64,000 nt of DNA. Origin: Eutreptiella sp. 'Long Island Sound 2002'. Taxonomy: Eukaryota > Euglenozoa > Euglenophyceae > Eutreptiales > Eutreptiaceae. The DNA is taken from NCBI GenBank assembly GCA_964036045.1, contig OZ038381.1, positions 154,832,352 to 154,896,351 of the forward strand, written 5' to 3'. Positions 23,865 to 63,717 of this stretch are shown piece by piece; the stretch's first letter is position 1; each line of letters begins with the position of its first letter. The position numbers and the translations under genes are program-made. The notes below the pieces were generated by a model. That model was not told where the DNA came from and did not search any database. It saw only the letters and a list, made by a program, of their open reading frames with translations.

Positions 23865-24744
23865 CCTCACAGTATTGGGCACCCTCCACCTTGCCAAACA
23901 CAATTAAGTTCACAGACCGGTGCTTACACCATCGCCACGCTGATGGCGACTCATTTCCATGGCCCAGCAACATAGTCCAACTGCGCTGTGTATCTTTCGG
24001 CACGAAAAAAATCGCACAAAACGTCCCACAATCCACACCAGTGTCCGCGAGGTGGCCAAAGCTTTCCGCACACGAAAGTAGGGAAAGAGCAAGCCCGTAC
24101 ACAAGCAGATTCCGCGCCCCGCGGTGCCTGCATCGAATTTCTCCGACCCTGTGCAACATGTGAATGCCCGTGAGCCTGACAGTGAAGGGAGGGCCGAGGT
24201 ATCTGCTCATGCCCATCTATGGCCTTTGCGGCCGGCAAACCCCTCGGTGACGGACCATCCTTGGCCTCCTTTGGAGCAGCCAAGCCCAAATCAATGGGGG
24301 GAAGGGGGGGGGGGGCATACAAATTGGTAACTCGCGACGAGGATTCGGCTGGCGCCCGCCCGCTTCTCCGACACAGCGGAGGACCCCCGGCAGGCGGAGG
24401 CCACCTCCGCTTTCTTTGCGTACCCTCACGCCCGATGCCTGGGAAGTCCGCCACCACAACTCCATGTCCCCGGTTTCCTAAGCGATTGGGTTGCACGAGG
24501 GGTGTTGGACATCAAAGCGGCTCACTATATGCGGTTCATAGAGGGCGAAATACTTAAGAAATAGAGCAACGTTGTTGGTGCTTCCAGTGCAACAGCTGAC
24601 CATTTAAGTACATCATCCACACCTTTCACACCGAGGCTCCCGGTGAGTAGGCATGTGTGGTATTTGGTACCCATCACTCCAATTTCATAAGGTGAGGAAC
24701 GCGGACGCTACCCCTGCACTTCGATCTCGCCTGGCCCACGCGGG

Positions 24745-27700
24745 GGGGGGGGTTGGTCCCAAAGCGAAGGAGGCCCCCATGCCTACACGGCGGGGGCCGC
24801 AGTGCTCCCAATGCGAAGGAGGTCCCCATGCCAATGCGGAGGGGGTCTCGGTGCTCCGAAAGCGAAGGAGCCCACGTGGCAGGGGTCTTGGCAGTCTCAA
24901 AGCGAATGGGGCCCCCGTGCCCACACGGCGGGGGCCTCGGTGCTCCAAATGCCAAGGAGGCGCTTGCGCCGTTGTGGCGGCAACCTCCGTGGTCCCGAAG
25001 CGAAGAAGGCCCCCGCACCTTTGCGGCGGGGGTCCTCTGTGGGTTGGGGACCGCCGAGGCGCCGTTTGCATTGGCGTGGGGGCATCCTTTGCTTTGGAAC
25101 CACCGAGGCCCCCGCCGCAAGCGCGCGGGGGCCTGTTTCCCCTTGGGACCACCAAGGCCCCACCACAAGGGCGTGCTGGCCTCCTTTGCATTGGGAGCAC
25201 GGAGGCCCCCTCCGCAAGGGGTTTGGGGTCCTACTTTGCATTGGGAGCTTCAAGGCACCTGCCGCGTGGGTGCGGGAGCCTCCTTTGCTTTTAAACCACC
25301 GAGTCCCCCTCAGCAAGGGCGTGGGGGCCTCGTTCGCTTTGGGACCGTTGAGGCCCATGCCGCGTGGGGCGCGGGTGCCCCCTTCGCTTTGAGACCACCG
25401 AGGTGCCCTCCGCAAGGGCGTAGGGGCCTCCATCTCTATGGGACCGCTGAGCCCCCCTATGCAAGGGGGTGGTGTCTCTTTCGCTTTGGGACCAGCAAGG
25501 CCCCCGCCGCAAGGGCGCGGGGGCCCCCGCCGCCTTGAGACCACTGAGGCCTCCGCCGCGTTGGCGCAGGGGCCTCCTTCGCCTTGAGACCACTGAAGCC
25601 ACTGCGGCGTTAGTGCAGGGGCCTCCTTCGCTTTGGGGCCACCGAAGCCCGCCGCGGGGGCACGGCGGCCTCCTTTGCTTTGGGATCGCCAAGGCCACCG
25701 CCGCAAGGGCGCGGGGGTCTTCTTCGCTTTGGGACCATGGAGACCCCCGCCACGAGGGCGTTGTGGCCCTCTTCGCGTTGGGAGCACCGAGGCCCCCGCC
25801 ACATGGGCGCAGGGGCCTCCTTGGCTTTGGGACCACCGAGGCCCCCTCCGGGAGGGCATGGGAGCCTACTTCCCTTTGGGACCACCGAGGACCCCGCCAC
25901 GTGGGCGCAGGGGCCTCCTTCGCTTTGGGACCACCCAGGCCCCCTCCACAAGAGCACGGGGGCCTCTTTCCCATTGGAAGCCCCGAGGCCTCTTCCGCGC
26001 GGGGGCGGGGGGCTCCTTCGCTTTTGGACCACCGAGTCCCCCTCCGCAAGGGCTTGGGAGCCTCTTTCGCTAAGGACCTCCAAGGCCCCCGACGCAAGAG
26101 CGTGGGGGCGTCATTCCTATTGGGAGCCCTGAGGCCCTCGCCCCCTGCGGACGGGGGCCTGTTGCCTTTGGAATCACTGAGGCCCCTCCGCAAGGGCGTG
26201 GGGGCCTCCTTTGCATTGAGAGCACCGAGGCACCCGCCGTTGGGCACGGGGGCCTCCTTCGCTTTGGGACCATCGACGCCCTCGCCGCAAGGCCGCGGGG
26301 GTTTACTTCGAATTGGAAGCACCGAGGCTCTCGCGGGCGCGGGGGCCTCCTTCGCTTTGGGACCACCGAGTCCCCCTCTGCAAGGGCTTGGGAGCCTCTT
26401 TCACAAAGGACCACCGAGGACCCCGCCGTGTAGGCGTCGCGGGGGCCTCCTTCGCTTTGGGACCACTGAGTCCCCCTCTACAAGGGCTTGGGAGCCTCTT
26501 TCGCAAAAGACCACTAAGGCCCCCGCCGTGTAGGCGCCGGGGCCTCCTTCGCTTTCAGACCACCGAGGCCCCCGCCGCAAGGGCGTGGGGGCGTCCTTCC
26601 AATTGGGAGCACCGAGGCCCTCGCCCCTTGCGGGCGGGGGTCCGATTTGCTTTGGGACCACCGAGGCGCCTCCGCAAGGGCGTGGGGGCCTCCTTTGCAT
26701 TGGGAGCAGCGAGACCCCCGCCGCGTGGGCGTAGGGCCTCCTTCGCTTTGGGACCATCGAGGCCCTCGCCGCAAGGGCGCAGGGGCGTCCTTCACTTTGG
26801 GACCACCAGGGCCCCTTGCACTTGTGCATGGGGGCCTCCTTCGTTGTGGGACCACCGAAGCCCCCGCCGCCAGGAGGCAAGGGCCTCCTTCTCTTTGGGA
26901 CCACCAAGGCGCCCTCTGCAAGGGTGTGGGGGCCTCCTTCGCTTTTGGACCTTGGAGCCCCCCCCCGCAAGGGCGCGGGGGGCTCCTTTGCTTTGGGACC
27001 ACTGAGGCCGTCTCCGCAAGGGCACGGCGGCCTCCTTCGCCTTGCAACCACCAAGGCCCCCACGGCAAGGGGGTGGGCGCCTCCTTCCCATTCGGAGCAC
27101 CGAGGCCCCTTGCGTGTGGGCGCGGGAGCCTCTTTCGCTTTGGGACCACCGAAGCCCCCGCCGTGTAACCGTGGGGGCCTCCTTCGCTTTGGGACCACCA
27201 AGGTTCCCGCCGCGTGGGCTCGGGGGACTCATAGGCTTTGGGACCACCGAGGCCCCCGCCGCAAGGCCTTCAAATTGGGAGCACCGAGGTCCTCGCCCCT
27301 TGCGGGCGGGGGCCTGTTTCGCTTTGGGACCACCGAGTCCCCTGTGCAAGGGCGTGCGGGCCACATTTGCATTGGGAGCACCGAGACCCCCTCTTCATGG
27401 GCCCGGGGGCCTCCTTGCCTTCCCGGCCACCGAGGCCCCCTCTTCATGGGCGCGGGGGCCTCCTTCGCTTTGGGACCACCGAGGTCCCCTCCACAAGGGC
27501 ATGGGGTCTCTTTCCCTTTGGGACCACCGAGGCCCGCTCCGCAAGGGCTTGGGGGAGTCCTTCGCTTTGGAACCACCAAGGCCCCCTCCACATGGGCTTG
27601 GGGGCCTCCTTCGCTTTGGGACCATCAAGGCCCCCGCTGCGTGGGCGCAGGGGCCTCCTTTGCTTTGGGACCATCGAGGTCCTCGTCGCAAGGGCGCGGG

Positions 27701-27786
27701 ACCTCCTTCGAATTGGGAGCACCGAGGCTCTCGCCGTGTGGGCGCGGGGGCCTCCTTCGCTTTGGGACCATCAAGGCCCCCGCTGA
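24745..27786. repeat. 48-bp GC-rich minisatellite, ~60 copies, with an internal inversion
   Basis: The forward unit is built from CCTCCTTCGCTTTGGGACC + ACCGAGGCCCCCGCCGCAAG + GGCGCGGGG. Period 48 equals 16 codons, which explains long open frames on both strands (up to about 350 residues) with 16-residue repeats. Units from 24745 to about 25030 run in the opposite orientation (TCCCAAAGCGAAGGAGG). From about 25070 to 27786 they run forward. Unit variants (CATTGGGAGCAC type; CTTGGGAGCCTCTTTCGC type) recur in blocks, showing higher-order duplication. It lies in hydrolase intron 1 and I regard it as non-coding. Confidence 0.92.
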
Positions 27787-28778
27787 ACACCAAGACCGGC
27801 ATCAAATTTCTAACAAACTAAATCCAATCCAATTACAAATCCCAGAGAGCCCATAAGTGAGGGGATGGCGCCCCCCCCACACCAAGATCGGTATGCCTTG
27901 GGGGCCAACCCGTAGTCCAAAGGATATCCCAAGGGGGCCTTTGCAGCTCCTTGACGCCGCGCATGCCCCGTGGAAGCCGGCCTGGGCTTCCTCGAAGCAC
28001 GTCATGTCCCCATGTCGGCGGAAGAGGCCGTGAGGGCCTCCTCGAAGCCCACCAGAAACCCTCACCCAAGATGGACCTGTGAAGGACCAGAGCAGGAGCA
28101 AGCGGGTGAGAGGGAGGCACACTACAAGCCTCGGAGCGGGTCCGGCCACATGGAGGCCTAGCAAGCCCATGCAAACCGCCACCCCCCCGTGGAGCCCGCC
28201 CTGTACCATCGTGGCTCCCCCATGGTGGCCAGCGAGGGGTGGGGCACGCAACCTCACGACCCAGCCGCCACAGCTGAAGCTAGGTCGTCCCCCAAGTTGC
28301 ATGTTAGCCTAGGGGATCCCCCAAATGGTTGCACCCCAACACTACGGTGAGGTCACGCGCCCCTGGGCGGCTGTGGGGGACCCAAAAGGGGGCAGAATTG
28401 CTACGTGACCCTGCGTTCTCGGGGGTCCGCAGAACCGGGGAAAAAATCAAAATTGGCTACATCGGGGGCCAAGGATGATTGTAGATGTGTTGCCCAAAAG
28501 AAGGTCGGCAGAAAAAAATTTCACCAATGGTGTGCTTGTGCCGAAAAAGAAACCCTTAAAAACCCCCCGCATACCATTTTTAAGAAAGGGGTGAGGTTTC
28601 CGAAACGCCTCACATTAGCAGATTTGTGAGATCGCCGCCCCCACCCCCGCGGAGGCCATCCCACGCCCCGACGACCACATCCTATATGCGGAGCACTTCC
28701 GGAGCAATGGCGGCCAACGGCTCCATTAGGCAGTCCGTACTTGCCCACTGTGGACGTTGTTGCAGGTCAAAGTACGCA
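27787..28778. other. No recognisable gene
   Basis: Intronic sequence between the minisatellite and the next retroelement. Nothing recognised on either strand. Confidence 0.4.
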
Positions 28779-35938: not shown

Positions 35939-37363
35939 CTAGGCCTTTGCCGTCCAGCCCACGACAGGCAACATCCAGACTTTCAACAGAAAGATGCGCC
36001 GTGGCAATTGCACAGGCAAGGATGACACGATGTGAACTCTTCTGAGGCATTCGTGAAGAGCTAATGCAAAAACTTGGTCCAACATAAGGCCCCACTCCGT
36101 ATGGGGTCCGCCAAGGGGCAACATGATGTTTCCTAGTCTACTGCCTAAGTACCGCACCCATTGCCGTACCATAATTCCTTCGTTTTGGAAGGCCTCGACC
36201 CAAGGCGCCAAGTCCATATTGCGGACATTTGCCGCTGTTTTCTTAATGCTTAGTTGTAGTCCGGAAAATTCTCCTAACCCATACAATACTTGCTTCGCTA
36301 TATGTAGTATTCCTAGCTTGTAAGCAAACGGGGAAGAAATGTTCAGGTCATCACTATACATCATTATCTCCACACCTGGTAGTTTTGTAGTCGGGGGGTA
36401 GATAACCACCGACGACACTAACGCAAACATGGCGGGTGACAGGGGGTCGCCCTGTCGTGTCCCTGCTACATACCCTGATACATGTTGTACCCCTGCCACA
36501 AACGCACCTGCCACACAATACAAGTATGGGGACTTCATTGTCCATAGCAGACACTTTATCAATGGGGCCGGAATACATAATGAAATCAACACTGCCTTTG
36601 TTAGCTCATGACTCATTGTGTGATATGCATTGGAAAAATTGATGTTCAACCCCGCCCCCGCTTCCATATGATCCCACAGTGCTCGGGAGCTGAAAATGTG
36701 GTCCAAAATGCATCTTTGCTTCAAAAATCCTTTTGGTTGTCGTAGGACATTCTCTAGTTGGATCAATATGACGTTTGTGTTCCATTTTTGTAACACCGAC
36801 TATAGGGCAAAGGGTCACAACAACCTGGGGCAGCCCCAGCGCTTTTGGGATCATAGTGACCACAGTTGTAAACCACGACTCAGGAAGGTGGTCCCCACCC
36901 AAACCCTCACACAACAAGGAGTACATTTTGGGAGCGAAGACCGGAGACAACGCTTTCGGGACTGAGGCTGGTAGGCCGTCAAGGCCCGCCCCCCCCCCCC
37001 CCCCCCCCCCGAGTAAAGCCGCTTTGAGGCCTCCTCAACTATTGGCAGTGACAGTGGGCAAAACAAGGCCTTACCATACTTCCGTAGTACCTTATGTGCA
37101 CCTATAGCGCGCAGATACTCTATACATTCAGGAACCGTTTTACTTGGAGGCTGGGATATGCCATCCCAGTGTTGGGCAAGATGCCGGGGAATCGCAGTCG
37201 GCTGTGTGAACACAGGCCCGTTGGGCAATTTTAAGCACTGGAGTCGCTTGTGTGTCTGCGGCTCGCGGATCAACGTATAAAGGTATACGCTCGTGCCGGA
37301 CCGCCAGGAGCATACCCTTTTTGCCTCAAAAATTGCAACACCATCTCGGACACATGCACCCAT
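35939..37363 (-). pseudogene. LINE reverse transcriptase, inactive
   Basis: The 36796-35939 frame has GTRQGDPLSPAMFALVSSVV (motif B), IMMYSDDLNISSPFA (motif C, YSDD) and LSIKKTAANV. Motif A reads NINFSNAYHTMSHE, where the usual (L/M)DFSKAFD is expected, so the first catalytic Asp is replaced by Asn. Upstream frames 36950-36606 (FAPKMYSLLCEGLGGDHLPE, PTTTKRIFEAKMHFGP) and 37363-36851 (TQPTAIPRHLAQHWDGI) supply the fingers region. A 22-base poly-C run at 36989-37010 interrupts it. Confidence 0.8.
36989..37010 (+). repeat. C22 homopolymer inside the LINE
   Basis: One of the longest of many poly-C/poly-G tracts in the window. It falls within the decayed LINE ORF2. Confidence 0.97.
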
Positions 37364-56612: not shown

Positions 56613-57599
56613 TCAACGGAGATTGTCATCTATGCTGTGGTTGTCAACCACAACCTGCACACCTAGGCGGCCACGCAGGAGGCTTAGGCCCCCGCTATTG
56701 CACAGCATGCGCTTTAGCCTACGGTGGCTGCCTTCCATGGCAAAGCATGAAAATTTGGAGAGGATTCTCCACTTGCGGGCAAAGAGATACATGTGGTCAA
56801 TCCACAAATGTGGCAACAGCAGCTCAGGCCACTGTAACACTAAGTGGGCCTCGCCCATTCTTATTCTACATTCGCGTAGCCTTCCTACCTTCCCTCCGGA
56901 CAGCCAATCCGTTTGCCATGCATACACGCACACCTGGGCAAAGTTGTCCCACCACTCCCTACAAACATCACCCCATAGTCTGCTTCCCACCCGCTCGTTG
57001 TTCGTTCCCCCCTCCTCAAGGCATATCGTAATGAGTGTCTCCCACCGCCGGGTGCGCATGAATTGCACGGCCGCGGCACACTCCAACCTAACCTTTCCCT
57101 TCCCGTTTGCCTTGTCATTGTTTGACCTCCCCTTTGTTACCGTCTTCGCTTGAATGCGGGCAACATCTAGAATGGGCTGAAACAAATTGCGCACAACGAC
57201 GGCCGCGGACTTGCCCTTTGCTGCCGCCACTGCGTCGCGCATGCCCGAGATACCACATATTCCATTGTCTACAGAGGGGACGTTCCTGTCCGGAAGCGCT
57301 CCGCGCGGCACAATACGTGCTGCGCGTGTTGCTTCAAAACGCGCAGCACGTGCAGAACGCAAACAACACACGCATCACGCGCAGAACGCGCAGAACGCGC
57401 AGCACGGCGTTCTAGAGGCAGACTTAGAAGCAGACTTCCGGCACGCGCAAAACGCGTAGCACGCGTAGCACGTCACTATTGCACACGCGCGCACTTTTGG
57501 GGGGCCGCGTCCTCACAGTTTGGGTATCCAGCCTACGCGGTTGTCCCCCAGGGTTCGCACTGGTCCCATGGGTAGGGATGGCAGAGGCTTGGCGGCCAT
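56613..57599 (-). CDS. Small two-exon gene just downstream of the piggyBac gene, transposon-like, unrecognised
   Basis: Exon 1 is 57599-57517 (ATG; MAAKPLPSLPMGPVRTL), with donor AAACT|GTGAGG, phase 2. Exon 2 is 57285-56613, with acceptor CCGGACAG, phase 2. The join gives 251 residues. Exon 2 has a basic stretch (TKGRSNNDKANGKGK), then FMRTRRWETLITICL, WGDVCREWWDNFAQVCVYAW, LQWPELLLPHLWIDHMYLFA and FSCFAMEGSHRRLKRML. The Trp/His-rich C-terminal part resembles terminal regions of DDE-type transposase proteins in general feel only. The intron (57516-57286) contains introner-like sequence. The start lies 46 nt after the piggyBac stop. The exon 1 assignment is less certain than exon 2. Confidence 0.5.
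57286..57516 (-). repeat. Introner-like intron in the small gene (231 nt)
   Basis: Contains GTGCTGCGCGTTCTGCGCG and CTGCCTCTAGAACGCC on the minus strand. It is more diverged than the others at its 3' end (TTCCGGACAG). Confidence 0.55.
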
Positions 57600-57645
57600 G
57601 AAGTTCACGATTCCACCACGTCCGCCCTCCACCACCTTCTCCTTC

Positions 57646-59445
57646 CTAATCTTCGTCATCCTCCATGTCCTCGTCCTCTTCCCCGTCACTCTCCTCCTCC
57701 TCCTCACTCTCTTCCTCCTCATCCTCCTCCCCCTCCTCCTCACTCTCCTCCTCCGTGTCATCCTCACTCTCCTCCCTCTCGCTTCCATCCTCCTCGGCCT
57801 CTTCGCCCTCCTCCTCCACATCCGCCTCTACCACCCCGGTCACCCCATGCGCCACGGCAAAGCACCCCACATGGCACCACTTGCCGCACCCACAACAAAC
57901 GTAGTGGGTCTTGCCCCGGTTGCAATGGGCGCACACCCGGCGGCCCGGCATCCGCACCGGCACGTGGATGGGCTTGGCCACCGCCACTGTACAAAAGCGG
58001 CGCCGGATAAGGTCCCACTGCCAGTCAAACATGGTACCCGTTCGGGCCCCCCCGAGGAACCGGCAGGTCGCGTATGCGTTGACCACGGCATACCGGAGGA
58101 CGAACGCACGCACCGCATGCGACCACGTCATCTGACGTCCCATCTGGCGCATCTGGAGCGCCATCTGGTTGACGCCATCTACCCCACGCGATAGCTGGCG
58201 GTAGCTGGCGACCACCGGGTTCACCTCATTCCCGCTGCGGCGATGCACGGGTCCGGCTTGTGGGAAGTGGACGTTGGTGAGCATCGGCACTACGCGGGGC
58301 GGCTTGTGACCCACCTTTGGGTTCTTAAAGACCACCATGGCGTACCTCGCGTCGTCCACAGTGCACGTGGCGGTTTGTCCTTCTCCTAGAAGCTCTCCTG
58401 CCCTGTCCACCCCGTACGTGGAGCGCTTCGTCATCATCAAGAATGCGTGCCCCTCCGCAGCGAGGTCACGCGCTAGCTCGTGGGATCCAAAAAAGGAATC
58501 CGCACAAAGGATGATCCCGGAAGGGAGGAGACCTGCCCACATGGTCATGATCTGCTGGGCATTGTAGTTGCCCGCACTGTTGCCGAACCGCCGCAGGTGC
58601 CCGCGTCTACCCGTGTACAGGTACATGTCCACCAGGTACCCACTAGTGGCATCGGCAAGGCAATAGAGCTTGATGCCGGTGGAGTGGGGCTTGCGGGCGA
58701 TGAACATCCGCAGTGGGCCGGCACGTATGCCTTTGTGCGGCACCACGGACTCATCCCCACAAGCCGCGCCACCCAACCGCCAAGCACCAGCCCACTGCCC
58801 ATTGCACTCCTCCAGTAGTTCAACAACGTCGGGCCGGATGTTACGGCGCAAGGCGTAGTACTGCTTGCGGCTTAGCAATTGTGCCATGAAGGGGTTGTAC
58901 AGTAACCCGTCCCGTTCCCAGATGCCGTCTACTTGCATGGGCCGTACCATGCCTAGTAGGAGGATGAAGGCGTTGTACCTACGGAAATGGAAGCCACATC
59001 GATTGGGGCAAACACTACAATCGATTGGCCGAACCGCTAGAATCAAGTGGGACACACCTTGGTACTAGGGGGATCAAGTGGGAGAGGTTCGCCTTCCGGA
59101 GGGATGCCCGCTGTAATTCCTGGATGGGAGCCAACATGTGATCCCACACCTCATCCTCGGTGTACCCGACTAATTTAGTTTGGCCTGGCCGGACTCCATG
59201 CATGATATTTGCTGCACAGTCCTCCACGGGGACTGAAACCGCCCAAAGATTCGTGGGAAATGGCATTTTTGAAGAGCGGTGTGTCTGCACAACACGGAAC
59301 ACGGACTTTTAGGCTCCAGAGGCAGAACCGGAGGCAACGCCGAGAACGCGCAACACGCGCAGAACGCGCCACACGCAGTCCAGAGGCACAGTCAGAGGCA
59401 ACACGCAGCACACGTAGCACAGGGCACTGTGGGTGTTTTTTTCAT
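57646..59445 (-). CDS. piggyBac-type transposase, apparently intact, with introns
   Basis: Exons 59445-59428 (ATG), 59284-59058 and 58978-57646 join in phase (0, then 2) to 525 residues. The DDE_Tnp_1_7 fold is clear: NAFILLLGMVRPMQVDGIWE, LYNPFMAQLLSRKQYYALRR, then catalytic Asp191 (YCLADATSGYLVDMYLYTGR), Asp242 (IILCADSFFGSHELARDLAA) and Asp349 (LSRGVDGVNQM), and MTWSHAVRAFVLRYAVVNAY. Near residues 431-454 is a Cys/His cluster (CAHCNRGKTHYVCCGCGKWC then HVGC), the usual C-terminal zinc finger. An acidic tail of about 70 Glu/Asp-rich residues follows. No stop or shift is seen. The first intron is introner-like; the second (79 nt) is ordinary. I saw no flanking TTAA/inverted repeat pair, so it may be a domesticated copy. 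The 18-nt first exon is the least certain part. Confidence 0.85.
59285..59427 (-). repeat. Introner-like intron in the piggyBac gene (143 nt)
   Basis: Donor ACA|GTGCCC and acceptor CGTGTTGTGCAG. It contains GTGGCGCGTTCTGCGCGTG, TTGCGCGTTCTCGGCG and CTGCCTCTGGAGCC, matching introns of the neighbouring gene. Confidence 0.7.
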
Positions 59446-59456
59446 GGTGGGGCTGG

Positions 59457-59549
59457 TTTGAGCCTCAATTCCCCTACCACACAGCAACCTGCAGCGGAGG
59501 GGGGGGGTTTCAACCTCGATTCCCCGACCGCAGAGCAATAGGCAACAGG
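59457..59549 (-). promoter_or_regulatory. Presumed 5' flank of the piggyBac gene with a short tandem duplication
   Basis: TTTGAGCCTCAATTCCCCTACCACACAGCA and TTTCAACCTCGATTCCCCGACCGCAGAGCA are two copies about 51 bp apart, separated by a poly-G tract. They lie just upstream of the proposed ATG at 59445. A regulatory role is inferred from position only. Confidence 0.3.
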
Positions 59550-59885
59550 TTTGGTATCTTTTTTTGCGGGAAACCACCAGTTCGCTTGTGCTGGGCGCCG
59601 GGCACTACATGTCCGATCGCCATAATACTCCGTTATCGTACAGCCAAGAAACCCGGTATAGCTACCACATATTACGACGCCACCAGTCCGGCGCCTGTTG
59701 AGAAAAAGCGCCTGTCTGCGCTGAAACTTCCCAAGGGGGGACCCGCAAAGCGGGCTGCGAACTCTGCCGCCCCCGGGACTCGTCGGGGTCCGGCCATCCC
59801 GGACTCGGCTCCCCAAGCGGGGAGAAAAACCCCTGGGGCCCCTCCCCCTCCCACCCCTCCTCCCCCTCCCAGCCCTCCCAACCCT

Positions 59886-62800
59886 CTACACTTCTTGGAT
59901 TTCGCCGTCCGTCATCTTGCCCTCGGTTGCCGTCTCCGTATCTGGATCCCCCTCCGGTTCGGCATGGCGTTCCGGGGAGTCGGGGGGCTCCTCCTTCACT
60001 CGCACAGGCGCCTGCAGAACGCGGAAAACGGGGTGCTGTCCTCCAGAGGAAGGCCAGAATCGAGACACGTGTAACGCGTAACACGCGCAGAACGCGCAAC
60101 ACATGCCAGGGCGGATTCCAGAGGCACAACAGAACCATACGGGCATGACGCGCAAACAGCAGTGACCCCGCAACGCGCACCTGCTCACCTGCCGGACCAC
60201 CATCGCCCCCTGCTGAGACCTCCGCGTGTGCGGCAGCGCCTTCTGCAGCGCCTTCTGCGGGCTCCTTGGGTCCTTCTTTGGCCCCCTGACCTTCCGTCTC
60301 CGGGGGAGGCTTCTGCAGAACGCGAACGACGTGACGTCTGTCCTCCAGAGGCACGGCGGAGGCAAGACATGTAGAACGCGGAGAACGCGCAACACGCGCA
60401 ACACGGAGCGTACCAGCCTCTAGAGGCGACAAAGAAGCACGCATGGAGAACACGCAGCAAAGCGACCTGCTCCACCTCCATCCCAACGGCGCCAGATCCT
60501 TCTGTTTTGATGCTCTGGGGATCGTCCCGCGTCTCGCCCGTCTCCTGCGGATCCTGTGGAAACACGAGGGGGGCAACCAAGTGGCAGAACATGGGGCAGA
60601 CGAGACCGGGCCTCCACATACATGTGACTCACGGCTCCGTACAAACCACGCATTGAAAGCCGCAACGGAGGACGTACGATCGGGTTGGTTCCGCAGCCGC
60701 CCACGCACCTTCTTGCTCTCTGCCACATCGGTGAATGGGCCGAGCAGCGCCTTCGGACGAAGCTCCGGCGGCTCGCCCGATGCGCCGGGGGGCGCGCCAT
60801 AGGGCAGGGGAGGCGGGGGACCCCGCGGCGGCGCGCCATACGGCAAGGGAGGGGGGTGGCCCCGCGGCGGCGCGCCATAGGGCAAGGGAGGCGGGTGGCC
60901 CCGCGGCGGCTCGCCATGCGGCGGCGGGCCCCGCGGCAGTGGCAGATAGCTGGGCCACTGCGGGTCTTCGTCGTACGACTGTTGGTACTGCGGTGGCGGG
61001 GCTGGCAGGTGCGGGTACCCGCTCATGTGCGGGGGCGCCCAATCCCAAGCGGCAGTCTGCACAACGTGTAACACGGCAAGTCCTCCTCCAGAAGCGTGCA
61101 AGGAATCATACGTGTAACACGCGTAGAACGCGCATCACGCTACCATGGGCCTCCAGAGGCGGCGCGGAGGCACCAGCGCGCACACCACCGAGACCACAAA
61201 GCACACAGATACCCGCGGTTTCTTCGCCGCCAGCTCTCGGGTGCGCACCAACGACCATGCTCCAGACGCCGGAAGTTCGAGTAGCCGTTCCTCTTCCAAT
61301 CCGTACGCCATCAGGCTGGCCATCCGGACAAACCGGACAAACTTCTCCTGCAGAACGCGGAAAACACGATCGGTCCTCCAGAGGCACAGTAGAAGCAAAC
61401 ACGCAGAACGCGCAGAACGCGCATGACGCGCGGAGCGACTACGTAGAAACACAACAGAGGACGCGCGCAACACCTGCAAAACATCCGTGTCCATGTCAAC
61501 GATGTCTTCGATGCCCATTGCGCTAGCTCACCTGATCGCTGACCCCACCTCCACGACCACCTCGCAGGCCCTCCATTTTCAGCTTGGCCAAACTCAGGCC
61601 CTCTGCCGGCGGGCTGAGGTCCACCGGCCATTGCGGCGCGGCGGCGCAACCCGTACAAACCGAAAGGCCCTTCAAAATCCCCTCCGCCACTTGTCTCGGG
61701 CTGCTCCATGGGTAGCGCTTCTCGAAGTGCTCACGGGCTGCTGCAGCCGACTGGGCGTTCTTGGTCCCGCATCTCAGCACGCTTTGCACGCTCAGGGCCC
61801 GCACACTGGTGTGCAGCAGCAGGGCCAACCCGAGCTCTTGCTTGGACTTGGGTTCCTCCGACAGGCACTCCTTGTAGTGCATCACCAGGCGACCCACGGT
61901 GGCGTTGAAGTCCGTCTCCAAAATTCTCTGCATCGTCTCCAGATCACGGTCGTACCCGCCTTCATGCTGGAACTTCTCTGCTCTTGTCGGTGCGGCGCTG
62001 ATGCTCTTCTGCGGGCCCTTCCCGCCGATCGCAAAGGACACGTTCCCACGGGCCGGCTTGTCCTTGTCCTTCTTTTTCTTGGGCATCTCGGCCTCGGACT
62101 TCTTCGGTGGCACCTTGGGCGGGCTCCGCTCCTCTGCCTTCCGCTTCTTCTTCTCTGCCATTGTCTGCGGCTCCTGCTTGACCTCCAGCATGGTGGACCA
62201 TGCTGCCTTTCCAGAAGCCTTTGCAGCAGAAGAGGAGTGTTTCTCCGGCACATCATCTGGCTCGTCCTCTGAATGCTCCCTCCTCCTCCTCCTCCTCCTC
62301 ACTCTCTTCTGCCTCGCCCTCCAACCAGGTCCACAACCGGTTCGCTTGGATCTGCAGAACGCGCAGCACGCGTAACACGGTGGTGGTGCCCCCAGAGGCG
62401 GAGCGAGAGGCACACTGGCGGAACGTGCAGAACGCGCAACACGCGCAACACACGTAGAACAGGGGGCAGAATCACGTACAGATGCAACACGCAGCACGCC
62501 CAGAACAACCTTTGTGTACTCGAACCATCCATCCGGCTTAGCGCGGCAATCTTGGACTTTTGCGGGATCCCGGGGCTTGCTTGGCTTCGTCTTGATCTGC
62601 AGGCAGTTGGTGGGGTAAGCAGCTTATCGAAAATGGAGACTAGGGACCGGCACGGTGCGACGAAACGGAACATAATGGCACTTGTCATGCATGCATACTT
62701 GATATGCGGTGACGTTGGTGAGGCACATCTCATCTTCTGGGCGATCGTTGCTGCCGGGCTTCTTGCGGTTGACCCAGGCTGCGTGCCACCCAGCTGTGCA

Positions 62801-63045
62801 GAAATGTGTGGCACGGCCCAGAAACACAAAAAAAAAATGTGAAACGAACGACATCGACGTGGGGGACATCCAAAGGCACAACACCCGTACTCCACCCCAT
62901 TGAACAATCACATACATGTCTGTTGTTTGATCTGGAACACGATGAACGCGTTGTGCTTCAGCGTGGCCGCGTTCCCCCAACTGCCCAGGTGGCCCCCCTT
63001 GGCCAGCCACTGCTTGTGGCGGTCCGGGAAAAGCGGTGCGGGCAT
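59886..63045 (-). CDS. Nine-exon gene, lysine/acid-rich nuclear-type protein, unrecognised
   Basis: Exons 63045-62916, 62793-62699, 62596-62510, 62351-61532, 61347-61213, 61056-60709, 60553-60467, 60312-60181 and 60011-59886 join in phase to about 652 residues, provided one base in exon 4 is discounted. The start at ATG 63045 is tentative; an acceptor-like CTCAG at 63056 suggests an upstream exon. The N-terminus looks globular (DRHKQWLAKGGHLGSWGNAA; GWHAAWVNRKKPGSNDRPED). Then come an acidic run, basic clusters (AEKKKRKAEERSPPK; MPKKKKDKDKPARG) that suggest nuclear localisation, and a helical part (YDRDLETMQRILETDFNATV). Next is a proline-rich region with four ~13-residue PPRGHPPPLPYGA repeats. 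The protein also has three psi-K-x-E sumoylation-type sites (VKQE, IKTE, VKEE) and an acidic C-terminus ending EIQEV. Several introns belong to one repeat family. No domain is recognised. Confidence 0.65.
60012..60180 (-). repeat. Introner-like intron (169 nt)
   Basis: Donor GAGCAG|GTGCGC and acceptor CGCGTTCTGCAG. It contains GTGCCTCTGGAATCC, TGCGCGTTCTGCGCGTGTTA and CCTCTGGAGGACAGC. A donor eight bases earlier in gene direction (GGCAG|GTGAGC) would break the frame of the last exon, so I use GTGCGC. Confidence 0.8.
60313..60466 (-). repeat. Introner-like intron (154 nt)
   Basis: Donor GAGCAG|GTCGCT and acceptor TTCGCGTTCTGCAG. It contains CGCGTGTTGCGCGTTCTCCG and GTGCCTCTGGAGGACAGAC. Confidence 0.8.
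61057..61212 (-). repeat. Introner-like intron (156 nt)
   Basis: Donor CGCGG|GTATCT and acceptor CGTTGTGCAG. It contains CGCCTCTGGAGGCCC, GATGCGCGTTCTACGCGTGT and CTTCTGGAGGAGGAC. Confidence 0.75.
61348..61531 (-). repeat. Introner-like intron with ambiguous 5' boundary
   Basis: Acceptor CCGCGTTCTGCAG at 61348. The 3' 126 nt (from 61473) match the introner family (CATGCGCGTTCTGCGCGTTC, GTGCCTCTGGAGGACCG). The donor could be ATCAG|GTGAGC at 61531 or TTTTGCAG|GTGTTG at 61473. The 58 nt between them read as a small open frame starting with ATG. Both choices are phase 0. Confidence 0.7.
62358..62509 (-). repeat. Introner-like intron (152 nt)
   Basis: Donor ACAAAG|GTTGTT and acceptor TGCGCGTTCTGCAG. 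It contains GTGTTGCGCGTGTTGCGCGT, GTGCCTCTCGCTCC and CGCCTCTGGGGGCACC. Confidence 0.78.
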
Positions 63046-63055
63046 GAAGAAAGGG

Positions 63056-63290
63056 CTGAGGTACAGGAGGACGCGTAGCTCGCGCAAAACATGGGTTCCG
63101 GCCTCCAGAAGCGTGATGTCGGTTACGTGCGGAACGCGGAACACGCCTTGCACGGATATGCGACACGAGTTATTCGAGTTCCAGAGGCACACCTAGAAGC
63201 GAACGCTTAGAACACGTAACACGCGTAACACGCGCGGCACACGGAGCACGAAAGCCAAGGTAGAGGCAACGGCAGGATACGCTTCTCACA
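63056..63290 (-). repeat. Probable introner-like sequence upstream of the nine-exon gene
   Basis: The minus strand carries GCGCGTGTTACGCGTGTTAC, GTGCCTCTGGAACTC, GTTCCGCGTTCCGCACG and GCTTCTGGAGGCC, ending in TGTACCTCAG at 63056. A donor CAT|GTGAGA near 63290 would make an intron of about 235 nt. The upstream exon is not established. Confidence 0.5.
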
Positions 63291-63717
63291 TGGAAAACGG
63301 TGGAAATGAACAAAACGGATGCTTCCATGACGTCCGGCACGTTCGAAAACCCCCCGGAACAACAAAACTTTATGGATTCATTTTTGACGAACAAAAAACG
63401 TTGATTCCGTTCTGCGCGTGGTAGACAAAGGAATATAGTGACACGCAACATCCCCTGCAACCCGTAGTCCGGAATGCGGCGATCAGCTGCAATGCGTCAA
63501 TATATCGCTGTAATTGGGAGCACCACATCCCACCAGCCGTGGATGGTGTCTTCCAAGCCGAAGTTGGCAAGACATTGTGCCCTTGGGATGCAGCGTTCTA
63601 GGGCGTGGTGCGGAACCCCCCCAATCGCGGGGGTTATCGCGTGGGTTATCGCGTGTGTTTTTTGGGCCCTTGCTTCAAAACCCTCCCTCATTTCGTGTCC
63701 AGGTCCTCTTATTCTTC
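63291..63717. other. Region between divergent genes
   Basis: Lies between the leftward nine-exon gene and the rightward partial gene, so it may hold both promoters or first exons. TTATCGCGTG occurs twice in tandem (63634-63655). No core promoter motif recognised. Confidence 0.35.

Follow-up and report, generated by a model that had tools for sequence, protein, structure and literature searches.

Shared motif arrays in the introns and other non-coding parts of a two-gene Eutreptiella transposon with a piggyBac-type transposase

Introduction

Several introns of neighbouring genes in the window (the whole 64,000-nt stretch of Eutreptiella DNA analysed here) contain the same sequence blocks in the same order. 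What are these introns, and why do they resemble each other? The original prediction considered them introner elements, i.e., near-identical introns inserted in neighbouring, unrelated genes. According to PMC9860276, introners are sequence-related GT-AG introns occupying several positions, as is the case here. We asked whether the genes are indeed unrelated, how far the blocks are distributed in the genome and how they vary between related elements.

Results

Both genes were found to belong to one DNA transposon of 6.17 kb, located at window positions 57261-63432 and possessing inverted ends, an ATAT duplication, a PF13843 transposase and the accessory gene A (Table 1). The genome contains at least 64 matches to this transposon, which is a lower bound, and all but 8 of them share 96-98% identity. 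Among 18 copies inspected, ATAT was present on the 5' side in 12/18 and on the 3' side in 15/18, and an empty site of the ATAT type was found for one copy. The target duplication of piggyBac is TTAA. The transposase (DDE_Tnp_1_7, PF13843, E 1.3e-24) is placed in the piggyBac superfamily, with which the element shares the transposase domain, a 4-bp AT-only target duplication and short inverted ends; we do not classify it as a canonical piggyBac because the duplication, at the sole empty site and at most copy ends, is ATAT and not TTAA. It also differs from the superfamily in its accessory multi-exon gene and its motif arrays.

Table 1. Features of the transposon in window positions
Feature	Position	Strand	Basis
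Complete two-gene transposon, inverted ends TCC(T/A)TTGTCTAC	57261..63432	-	ends of 18 copies compared, window included
ATAT target-site duplication, 5' side (partner copy 57257-57260)	63433..63436	.	empty site of one copy
Lone array unit, inverted orientation, just inside 5' end	63408..63420	+	18/18 copies inspected, 2 with one change
Gene A, accessory protein of no known family, nine exons	59884..63045	-	708-aa frame in 3/13 copies
Gene A, exons 1-5	63045-62916, 62793-62699, 62596-62510, 62351-61474, 61347-61213	-	
Gene A, exons 6-9	61056-60709, 60553-60467, 60312-60181, 60011-59884	-	
Leader A, putative block-bearing 5'-leader intron of gene A, 234 nt	63056..63289	-	GT donor 13/13, AG acceptor 12/13; unit match 48.5 bits
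I1, plain intron without blocks (gene A)	62794..62915	-	
I2, plain intron without blocks (gene A)	62597..62698	-	
IE1, block-bearing intron, 158 nt, phase 0	62352..62509	-	counterpart in L029 (acceptor changed there), same residue in L043
IE2, block-bearing intron, 126 nt, phase 0	61348..61473	-	same residue and phase in L029
IE3, block-bearing intron, 156 nt, phase 0	61057..61212	-	same residue and phase in L029
I6, plain intron without blocks (gene A)	60554..60708	-	
IE4, block-bearing intron, 154 nt, phase 0	60313..60466	-	no counterpart found in L029
IE5, block-bearing intron, 169 nt, phase 0	60012..60180	-	counterpart in L029
IE6 (leader B), putative block-bearing 5'-leader intron of gene B, ~204 nt	59285..59488	-	GT donor 12/13, AG acceptor 13/13; 62.6 bits
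Gene B, piggyBac-type transposase (PF13843), exons 59266-59058, 58978-57646	57646..59266	-	Pfam E 1.3e-24
Plain intron of gene B	58979..59057	-	
Near-invariant non-coding segment 3' of gene B stop	57508..57588	-	almost the same in 7 sequences from 3 families
Array units, 3' non-coding/subterminal region	57336..57472	-	

The spliced model of gene A, made without RNA, gives a single 708-aa frame across nine exons in 3/13 full-length copies, while the unspliced gene has 8-16 stops in this frame (four copies checked). The frames and the splice sites thus support splicing of the predicted introns. The 126-nt intron 61473-61348 fits the majority of copies, in which 61531-61474 is coding, but in the window copy a 4-bp insertion just upstream of it introduces a stop; this copy, whose frame is broken, also has a 113-bp loss in exon 4. 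Introns 61531-61474 and 61531-61348 were dropped as candidates, since the former segment is coding in most copies. The gene A protein contains proline-rich repeats and gave no matches in Pfam, and AlphaFold gave no informative fold for the middle of the protein (mean pLDDT 43).

Gene B has a stop-free frame in 5/13 copies, the window among them, and an ATG start in 13/13. Thus, the piggyBac gene does have a putative block-bearing intron, as had been proposed, but it precedes the start codon. Similarly, blocks are present at the low end of the region, where a small gene had been suggested, but this unit is internal to the element, located past the gene B stop. A 253-aa frame continuing into the flank found no match in a Pfam search. 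The conserved segment downstream of gene B matched no Rfam family at E<=1, and the Rfam search of the whole element gave a single match, under its gathering score. Neither transposase relatives nor the block pattern were found in viral contigs, and a phage search also gave none; records of the same genome may lie outside the sets searched in all three cases.

Five gene A introns of 126-169 nt have the ordered blocks in common with the 3' region and the two 5' leaders. The blocks comprise arrays of the 9-nt units GCGTTCTGC/GCGTGTTGC, along with GCCTCTGGAGG and CGTTCTGCAG. In the window units they stand in the predicted order on the sense (minus) strand. Eight units (IE1-IE5, leader B, leader A and the 3' region) were compared as majority letters of 13 copies, and 26/28 pairs exceeded 60 dinucleotide shuffles by z>4, the exceptions being IE1-IE3 and IE3-leader A; among pairs involving the four plain introns, 0/38 did so. 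This supports a sequence family common to the introns and confirms that three other gene A introns and the plain intron of gene B stand outside it. The family members are not near-identical, with 61-71% identity across the 26 listed unit alignments. A profile combining six units of the window with four of the related family L029 gave 16 matches at E<=1 in the window, all on the minus strand and within 57336-63238, and none elsewhere in it.

In copy L009 all nine-mers (29/29) and all GCCTC[TC]GG sites (8/8) are non-coding, with non-coding sequence making up 2624 of 6294 nt, and the three plain introns of gene A contain zero such motifs. The motifs of this copy are thus restricted to leaders, most introns and the 3'/subterminal region. 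Such a location bears on the possibility that the arrays are transposase binding sites of the subterminal type needed for transposition, and that their intron copies are a spill-over by internal duplication. Arrays near the 3' end and the single inverted unit adjoining the 5' end in 18/18 copies inspected agree with this explanation; nevertheless, we consider it rather unlikely, as most arrays are distant from the ends, within introns and leaders.

The arrays could also lack a function and represent slippage-prone 9-nt repeats homogenised between units by gene conversion. The 9-nt units are indeed periodic. In a single family, 9-bp indels were revealed in IE1, IE2 and the 3' region, which also fit the cis-motif reading discussed below, and one in coding exon E6, which speaks against that reading. 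However, all families compared repeat the order of unlike blocks within the unit (array, quasi-palindrome, 3' end), and the copy tested has no arrays in its coding sequence, which makes an absence of function improbable. Versions shared across a family could nonetheless arise through slippage or gene conversion with no function involved, which counts against the cis-motif reading.

A role at the RNA level was considered as well: the blocks may be intronic splicing or export enhancers, or the introns may be retained since intronless transcripts are silenced in a HUSH-like manner. The sense orientation of the motifs in gene A introns and the termination of the unit at the splice acceptor are consistent with such a role. 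It is quite improbable given that the motifs are absent from plain introns of the same gene but extend to the 3' region and, in family L030, precede gene B in inverted orientation, and that the consensus fold of the unit has 15 pairs, of which 2 are changed on both sides (no shuffled control).

To estimate how far the arrays extend beyond the window, an exact array 18-mer was used, which occurs at 353 places in the 2.28-Gb genome. All 31 places examined (31/31 of 353; from contigs C1 and C2, among the first 100 matches listed for C1-C3) are inside this transposon superfamily; such an exact sample is biased toward well-kept arrays, and rare or decayed host copies could escape it. Copies in other genes, as the original prediction implied, were therefore not found among these places. 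All 13 aligned full copies (13/13) hold every intron of the window transposon, and no intronless site was found among them. By eye, the intron flanks show the CAG splice consensus alone.

We next compared the window family with families L029, L030 and L043, each represented by one complete copy. Intron positions were taken from a spliced aligner, and only those with good flanking alignment were used. This aligner was unreliable at low similarity: it split IE1 of L029, which has an altered acceptor, and the introns it placed toward the C terminus of L030 are doubtful. Gene A of L029 is 43% identical to that of the window family, and the two ordinary introns have no common sequence: I1 and I2 scored 23 and 21 against L029 introns at matching positions, with 17-47 for comparisons involving a plain intron. 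The scores of block-bearing units were 46-110, whether or not the positions matched. Blocks have thus persisted while all resemblance between ordinary introns has vanished. Matching pairs of units score somewhat higher than non-matching pairs (means 91 and 79), so part of this likeness may be inherited.

The positions of block-bearing introns differ between families: one at residue 311 is found only in L030 (one copy), that at residue 433 is present in the window family and L029 and absent from L030, and 60466-60313 has no counterpart found in L029. L049, tried as a second cover for the extra intron of L030, does not span it. These differences indicate that block-bearing introns are gained or lost between families, inside the transposon.

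The motifs themselves also vary. Sense/antisense counts for L009, L029, L043 and L030 are 8/0, 16/2, 1/2 and 0/1 for GCCTC[TC]GG, 1/0, 0/3, 0/3 and 9/7 for TCCC[TC]GG, and 9/1, 1/0, 0/0 and 0/0 for GCGTGTT[GA]C; the unit GCGTTATCC occurs 0, 0, 5 and 0 times. The family versions are not clean-cut, because GCTTCT[GA]GA, common in L043 (4/2), is also present in the window family (3/0), and GCGTTCTGC is present in all four families. As far as single complete copies of L029, L043 and L030 show, only L030 stands clearly apart, and the window family, L029 and L043 overlap partly. L030 has weaker unit matches (11-16 bits) in inverted orientation as well, including two immediately before gene B, which argues for a role at the DNA level.

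With these data the introner explanation, i.e., a family of mobile introns entering many host genes and also this transposon, can be evaluated. The resemblance of GT-AG phase-0 introns located at different positions, and the gain or loss of block-bearing introns across families, would fit it. Against it are the 18-mer places, all 31 examined being in the superfamily (well-kept arrays favoured), the lack of profile matches elsewhere in the window, the blocks in 3' non-coding DNA and the 0/13 full copies without an intron. As sampled, the block-bearing introns belong to one transposon superfamily, are 61-71% alike and form part of a larger mobile unit, unlike introners as described in PMC9860276. 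We regard this origin as very improbable; the blocks are better described as parts of one repeated transposon.

Discussion

Our preferred reading, to which we give a probability of about 0.5, is that a two-gene transposon encoding a piggyBac-type transposase carries the shared blocks as its internal cis motifs, probably bound by a protein. An element-encoded protein, either the gene A product or the transposase, would bind the dense arrays in DNA. Such binding might, like that of VANC in VANDAL21, hold the chromatin of the element active, or it might help assembly for transposition. The arrays and the binding protein would then co-evolve, and introns would serve as sites keeping arrays along a long gene with the protein undamaged. 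A DNA-binding role of the gene A protein is a guess, because it has no Pfam match and its fold prediction is uninformative.

The element thus appears to keep its own short motifs in introns and other non-coding parts much as the plant transposon VANDAL21 does. The VANDAL21 transposase is Mutator-type and that of the present element piggyBac-type, and the motifs are unrelated; the second, quasi-palindromic block is found only here, and unlike VANDAL21, arrays occupy five of the eight introns of one gene. According to PMC5735166, VANC21 binds a 9-base motif arrayed one-way in non-coding DNA, both within introns and in intergenic and terminal regions, and the bound repeats evolve together. VANDAL21/VANC (Arabidopsis; PMC5735166, PMC10398659) and the present system both have: (i) a 9-base motif in dense same-orientation non-coding arrays; and (ii) genes beyond the transposase, with tandem peptide repeats in an accessory protein (here the proline-rich gene A product). 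Joint change of the motif within a family, as known there, may hold here too: L030 is clearly distinct, and the other families overlap partly. Binding and demethylation are shown there; here, binding is proposed. The confinement of arrays to non-coding parts of the element, typical of the VANDAL/VANC type, was found in one copy (29/29 and 8/8 sites).

Judged by titles, no published description of motif arrays in introns of a piggyBac-type transposon was found. En/Spm elements encode the accessory protein TNPA and have short repeated subterminal binding motifs. Both that system and ours thus combine an accessory protein with repeated short motifs, which are subterminal there and mostly in introns and leaders here.

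It is also conceivable, if doubtful, that the superfamily makes its own private introns: cis-regulatory array units would be repeatedly inserted into coding regions and rendered harmless by splicing, spreading over the element a self-recognition code whose version co-evolves in each family. If true, a single transposon would host an introner-like process of its own, and VANC-like self-marking would have been invented a second time, independently.

At the least, these data caution that sequence-related introns in 'neighbouring genes' can belong to one multicopy transposon. If the preferred reading of protein-bound cis motifs is right, a transposon with a piggyBac-type transposase independently evolved self-marking by motif arrays as in the VANC system, with introns as the main carrier. 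Intron gain would then be tied to transposon defence against silencing, in a system where the motif, a candidate protein and natural family variants are at hand.

A two-gene transposon carries the shared blocks

The building blocks claimed for this region are indeed present in its sequence (Table: Features). The whole stretch is repeated in the genome (2.28 Gb, 2205 contigs): scoring of 27 candidates out of 1982 from the first look yielded at least 64 matches. Identity is 96-98% in all except 8 of them, and the window copy is one of the 8. The same ends were found in 18 copies, window included. An empty site for one copy, L023, was located in the flank of another, L009. Once joined, the flanks of L023 read CCATATGTG, the same as this site (316 aligned columns at 91% identity; a gap of 17 nt lies close by), and the match defines the duplication as ATAT and sets the limits of the window element. 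ATAT was present at the 5' side in 12 and at the 3' side in 15 of the 18 copies shown. A further copy, L034, adjoins or interrupts a P0068-type relative from the same superfamily.

Both genes of the element lie on the same strand: gene A, an accessory gene with nine coding exons for which a Pfam search gave no family match, and gene B, a transposase (PF13843). Because a repeated element with common ends holds both, the neighbouring, unrelated genes of the original prediction both belong to one transposon. All introns were present in 13/13 aligned full copies, whose mean pairwise divergence was 2-4% in exons and introns alike. A putative eight-intron model of gene A gave a 708-aa frame in three of them; gene B had no stop in five. 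In the window copy, a 113-bp loss and a 4-bp insertion disrupt gene A.

Relatives of both genes at ORF level turn up in numerous long contigs (59, 63 and 117 proteins in separate searches), and some of them, P0063 and P0082, are fusions of parts of gene A and of the transposase. A single long open frame appears to join a gene A part and the transposase in many copies with internal deletions (genome places matching P0001 residues 1-197 or 44-197; also L033, P0063 and P0082). Many P0001-matching places have open frames of 500-700 aa, and the fusion derivatives are themselves multicopy; possibly they are repressor-like.

Features of the window and of a related copy
Feature	Position	Strand	Remark
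Claimed building blocks	57286-63290	-	
Transposon of the window	57261-63432		
Inverted repeat of array units	57314-57352		imperfect, near 3' end of element
Non-coding segment, ~80 nt	57508-57588	-	right after gene B stop
Array of diverged repeats	24650-27830		long, type CCTCCTTCGCTTTGGGACCACCGAGGCCCCCGCCG
Reverse transcriptase domain, RVT_1	35939-36799	-	E 3.5e-10, another mobile element
Related copy L029	C2:93575300-93583000		both ends, same gene order as window element

Structure of the units

Eight units were compared, namely five gene A introns (IE1-IE5), the gene B leader (IE6), the gene A leader and the 3' non-coding region, using majority letters of the 13 copies and 60 dinucleotide shuffles as control. 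Similarity exceeded the shuffles (z>4) in 26/28 pairs of block-bearing units, all except IE1-IE3 and IE3-leader A, and in 0/38 pairs involving a plain intron. With 61-71% identity in the 26 listed alignments, "near-identical" was too strong a description. A profile built from six window units and four of the related family L029 gave 16 window matches at E<=1, each of them inside the element and on the minus strand, and in the single copy L009 all motif sites (29/29 and 8/8) lay in non-coding parts. The inverted repeat near the 3' end weakly matches a miRNA model, below the model's cut-off.

Distribution of the array motif in the genome

The 18-mer GCGTTCTGCGCGTTCTGC occurs at 353 places by exact search, and its reversed control at 0. 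Thirty of 100 listed places lie within 7 kb of a known transposon part, the chance expectation being ~0.2% with the length of contig C3 assumed. We inspected 31 places (the first six listed, five chosen by eye that all lay away from known transposon parts, and twenty more taken from the places away from such parts), and 31/31 were inside the transposon superfamily, which speaks against introners. Rare or decayed units could sit in host genes outside this sample, which is biased to well-kept arrays and two chromosomes. We consider it about 90% probable that the blocks belong to the transposon as internal parts and are not introners.

Conservation and turnover between families

L029 is a diverged, frame-broken relative, identical to the window family at 299/699 aligned positions in gene A and 303/519 in gene B (spliced alignments). 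IE2 and IE3 keep residue and phase; counterparts exist for IE1 (acceptor altered), IE5, the two leaders and the 3' region, the limits of some being drawn by eye, and none was found for the I6-IE4 part. The plain introns I1 and I2 share their positions with L029, and their similarity is gone (local scores 23 and 21). Comparisons with a plain intron scored 17-47 and those among block-bearing units 46-110; over IE1, IE2, IE3, IE5, IE6 and the 3' region the mean was 91 where positions matched and 79 where they did not, and 82-88 between units of one element. Judged from the sequences, the block grammar is preserved while two ordinary introns lost all similarity.

The ~80-nt segment after gene B is nearly invariant in seven sequences of three families (window, L029, L030 region, L038-L040, L042) with transposases only about half identical. 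Single-base indels disfavour coding, and neither an Rfam family nor a folding excess was found. L043 has a more altered version.

Motif counts, sense/antisense where two values are given (one complete copy each for L029, L030 and L043; L043 is a deletion derivative without most of gene A)
Motif	L009	L029	L043	L030
GCCTC[TC]GG	8/0	16/2	1/2	0/1
TCCC[TC]GG	1/0	0/3	0/3	9/7
GCTTCT[GA]GA	3/0	0/0	4/2	0/0
GCGTGTT[GA]C	9/1	1/0	0/0	0/0
GCGTTATCC	0	0	5	0
GCGTTCTGC	12	6	4	5/2

By these counts the mix of motifs running through the units varies from family to family, most clearly in L030 and partially among the others; GCGTTCTGC is common to all four. L030 also has weaker inverted matches (11-16 bits), two directly before gene B. 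Its single copy lacks the residue-433 intron and has a block-bearing intron at residue 311, where neither the window family nor L029 has any, and probably a further one near residue 119. L043 keeps IE1 at residue 104 and is missing the plain intron at residue 75. Since positions differ between L030, L029 and the window family, block-bearing introns are, at the level of gene structure, seen to have come and gone inside the superfamily. Of the introner idea, variable position (residues 311, 433) survives inside the transposon, and spread into unrelated genes was not seen at the 31 places inspected.

Possible role of the blocks

The motifs here are dense, run mostly in one orientation, lie in non-coding parts (all sites in L009) and vary with the family; introns, leaders and the regions close to the ends carry them. 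This pattern resembles what is described for the target motifs of the anti-silencing protein VANC21 in its transposon VANDAL21 (PMC5735166, PMC10398659). A different type of transposase is encoded here, and no kinship between gene A and VANC is known, so the likeness would be one of working, not of membership in VANDAL/VANC. By this analogy, we give an even chance to the blocks being a protein-bound code with which the transposon marks itself; a protein would bind the element's motifs and may thereby affect silencing or transposition.
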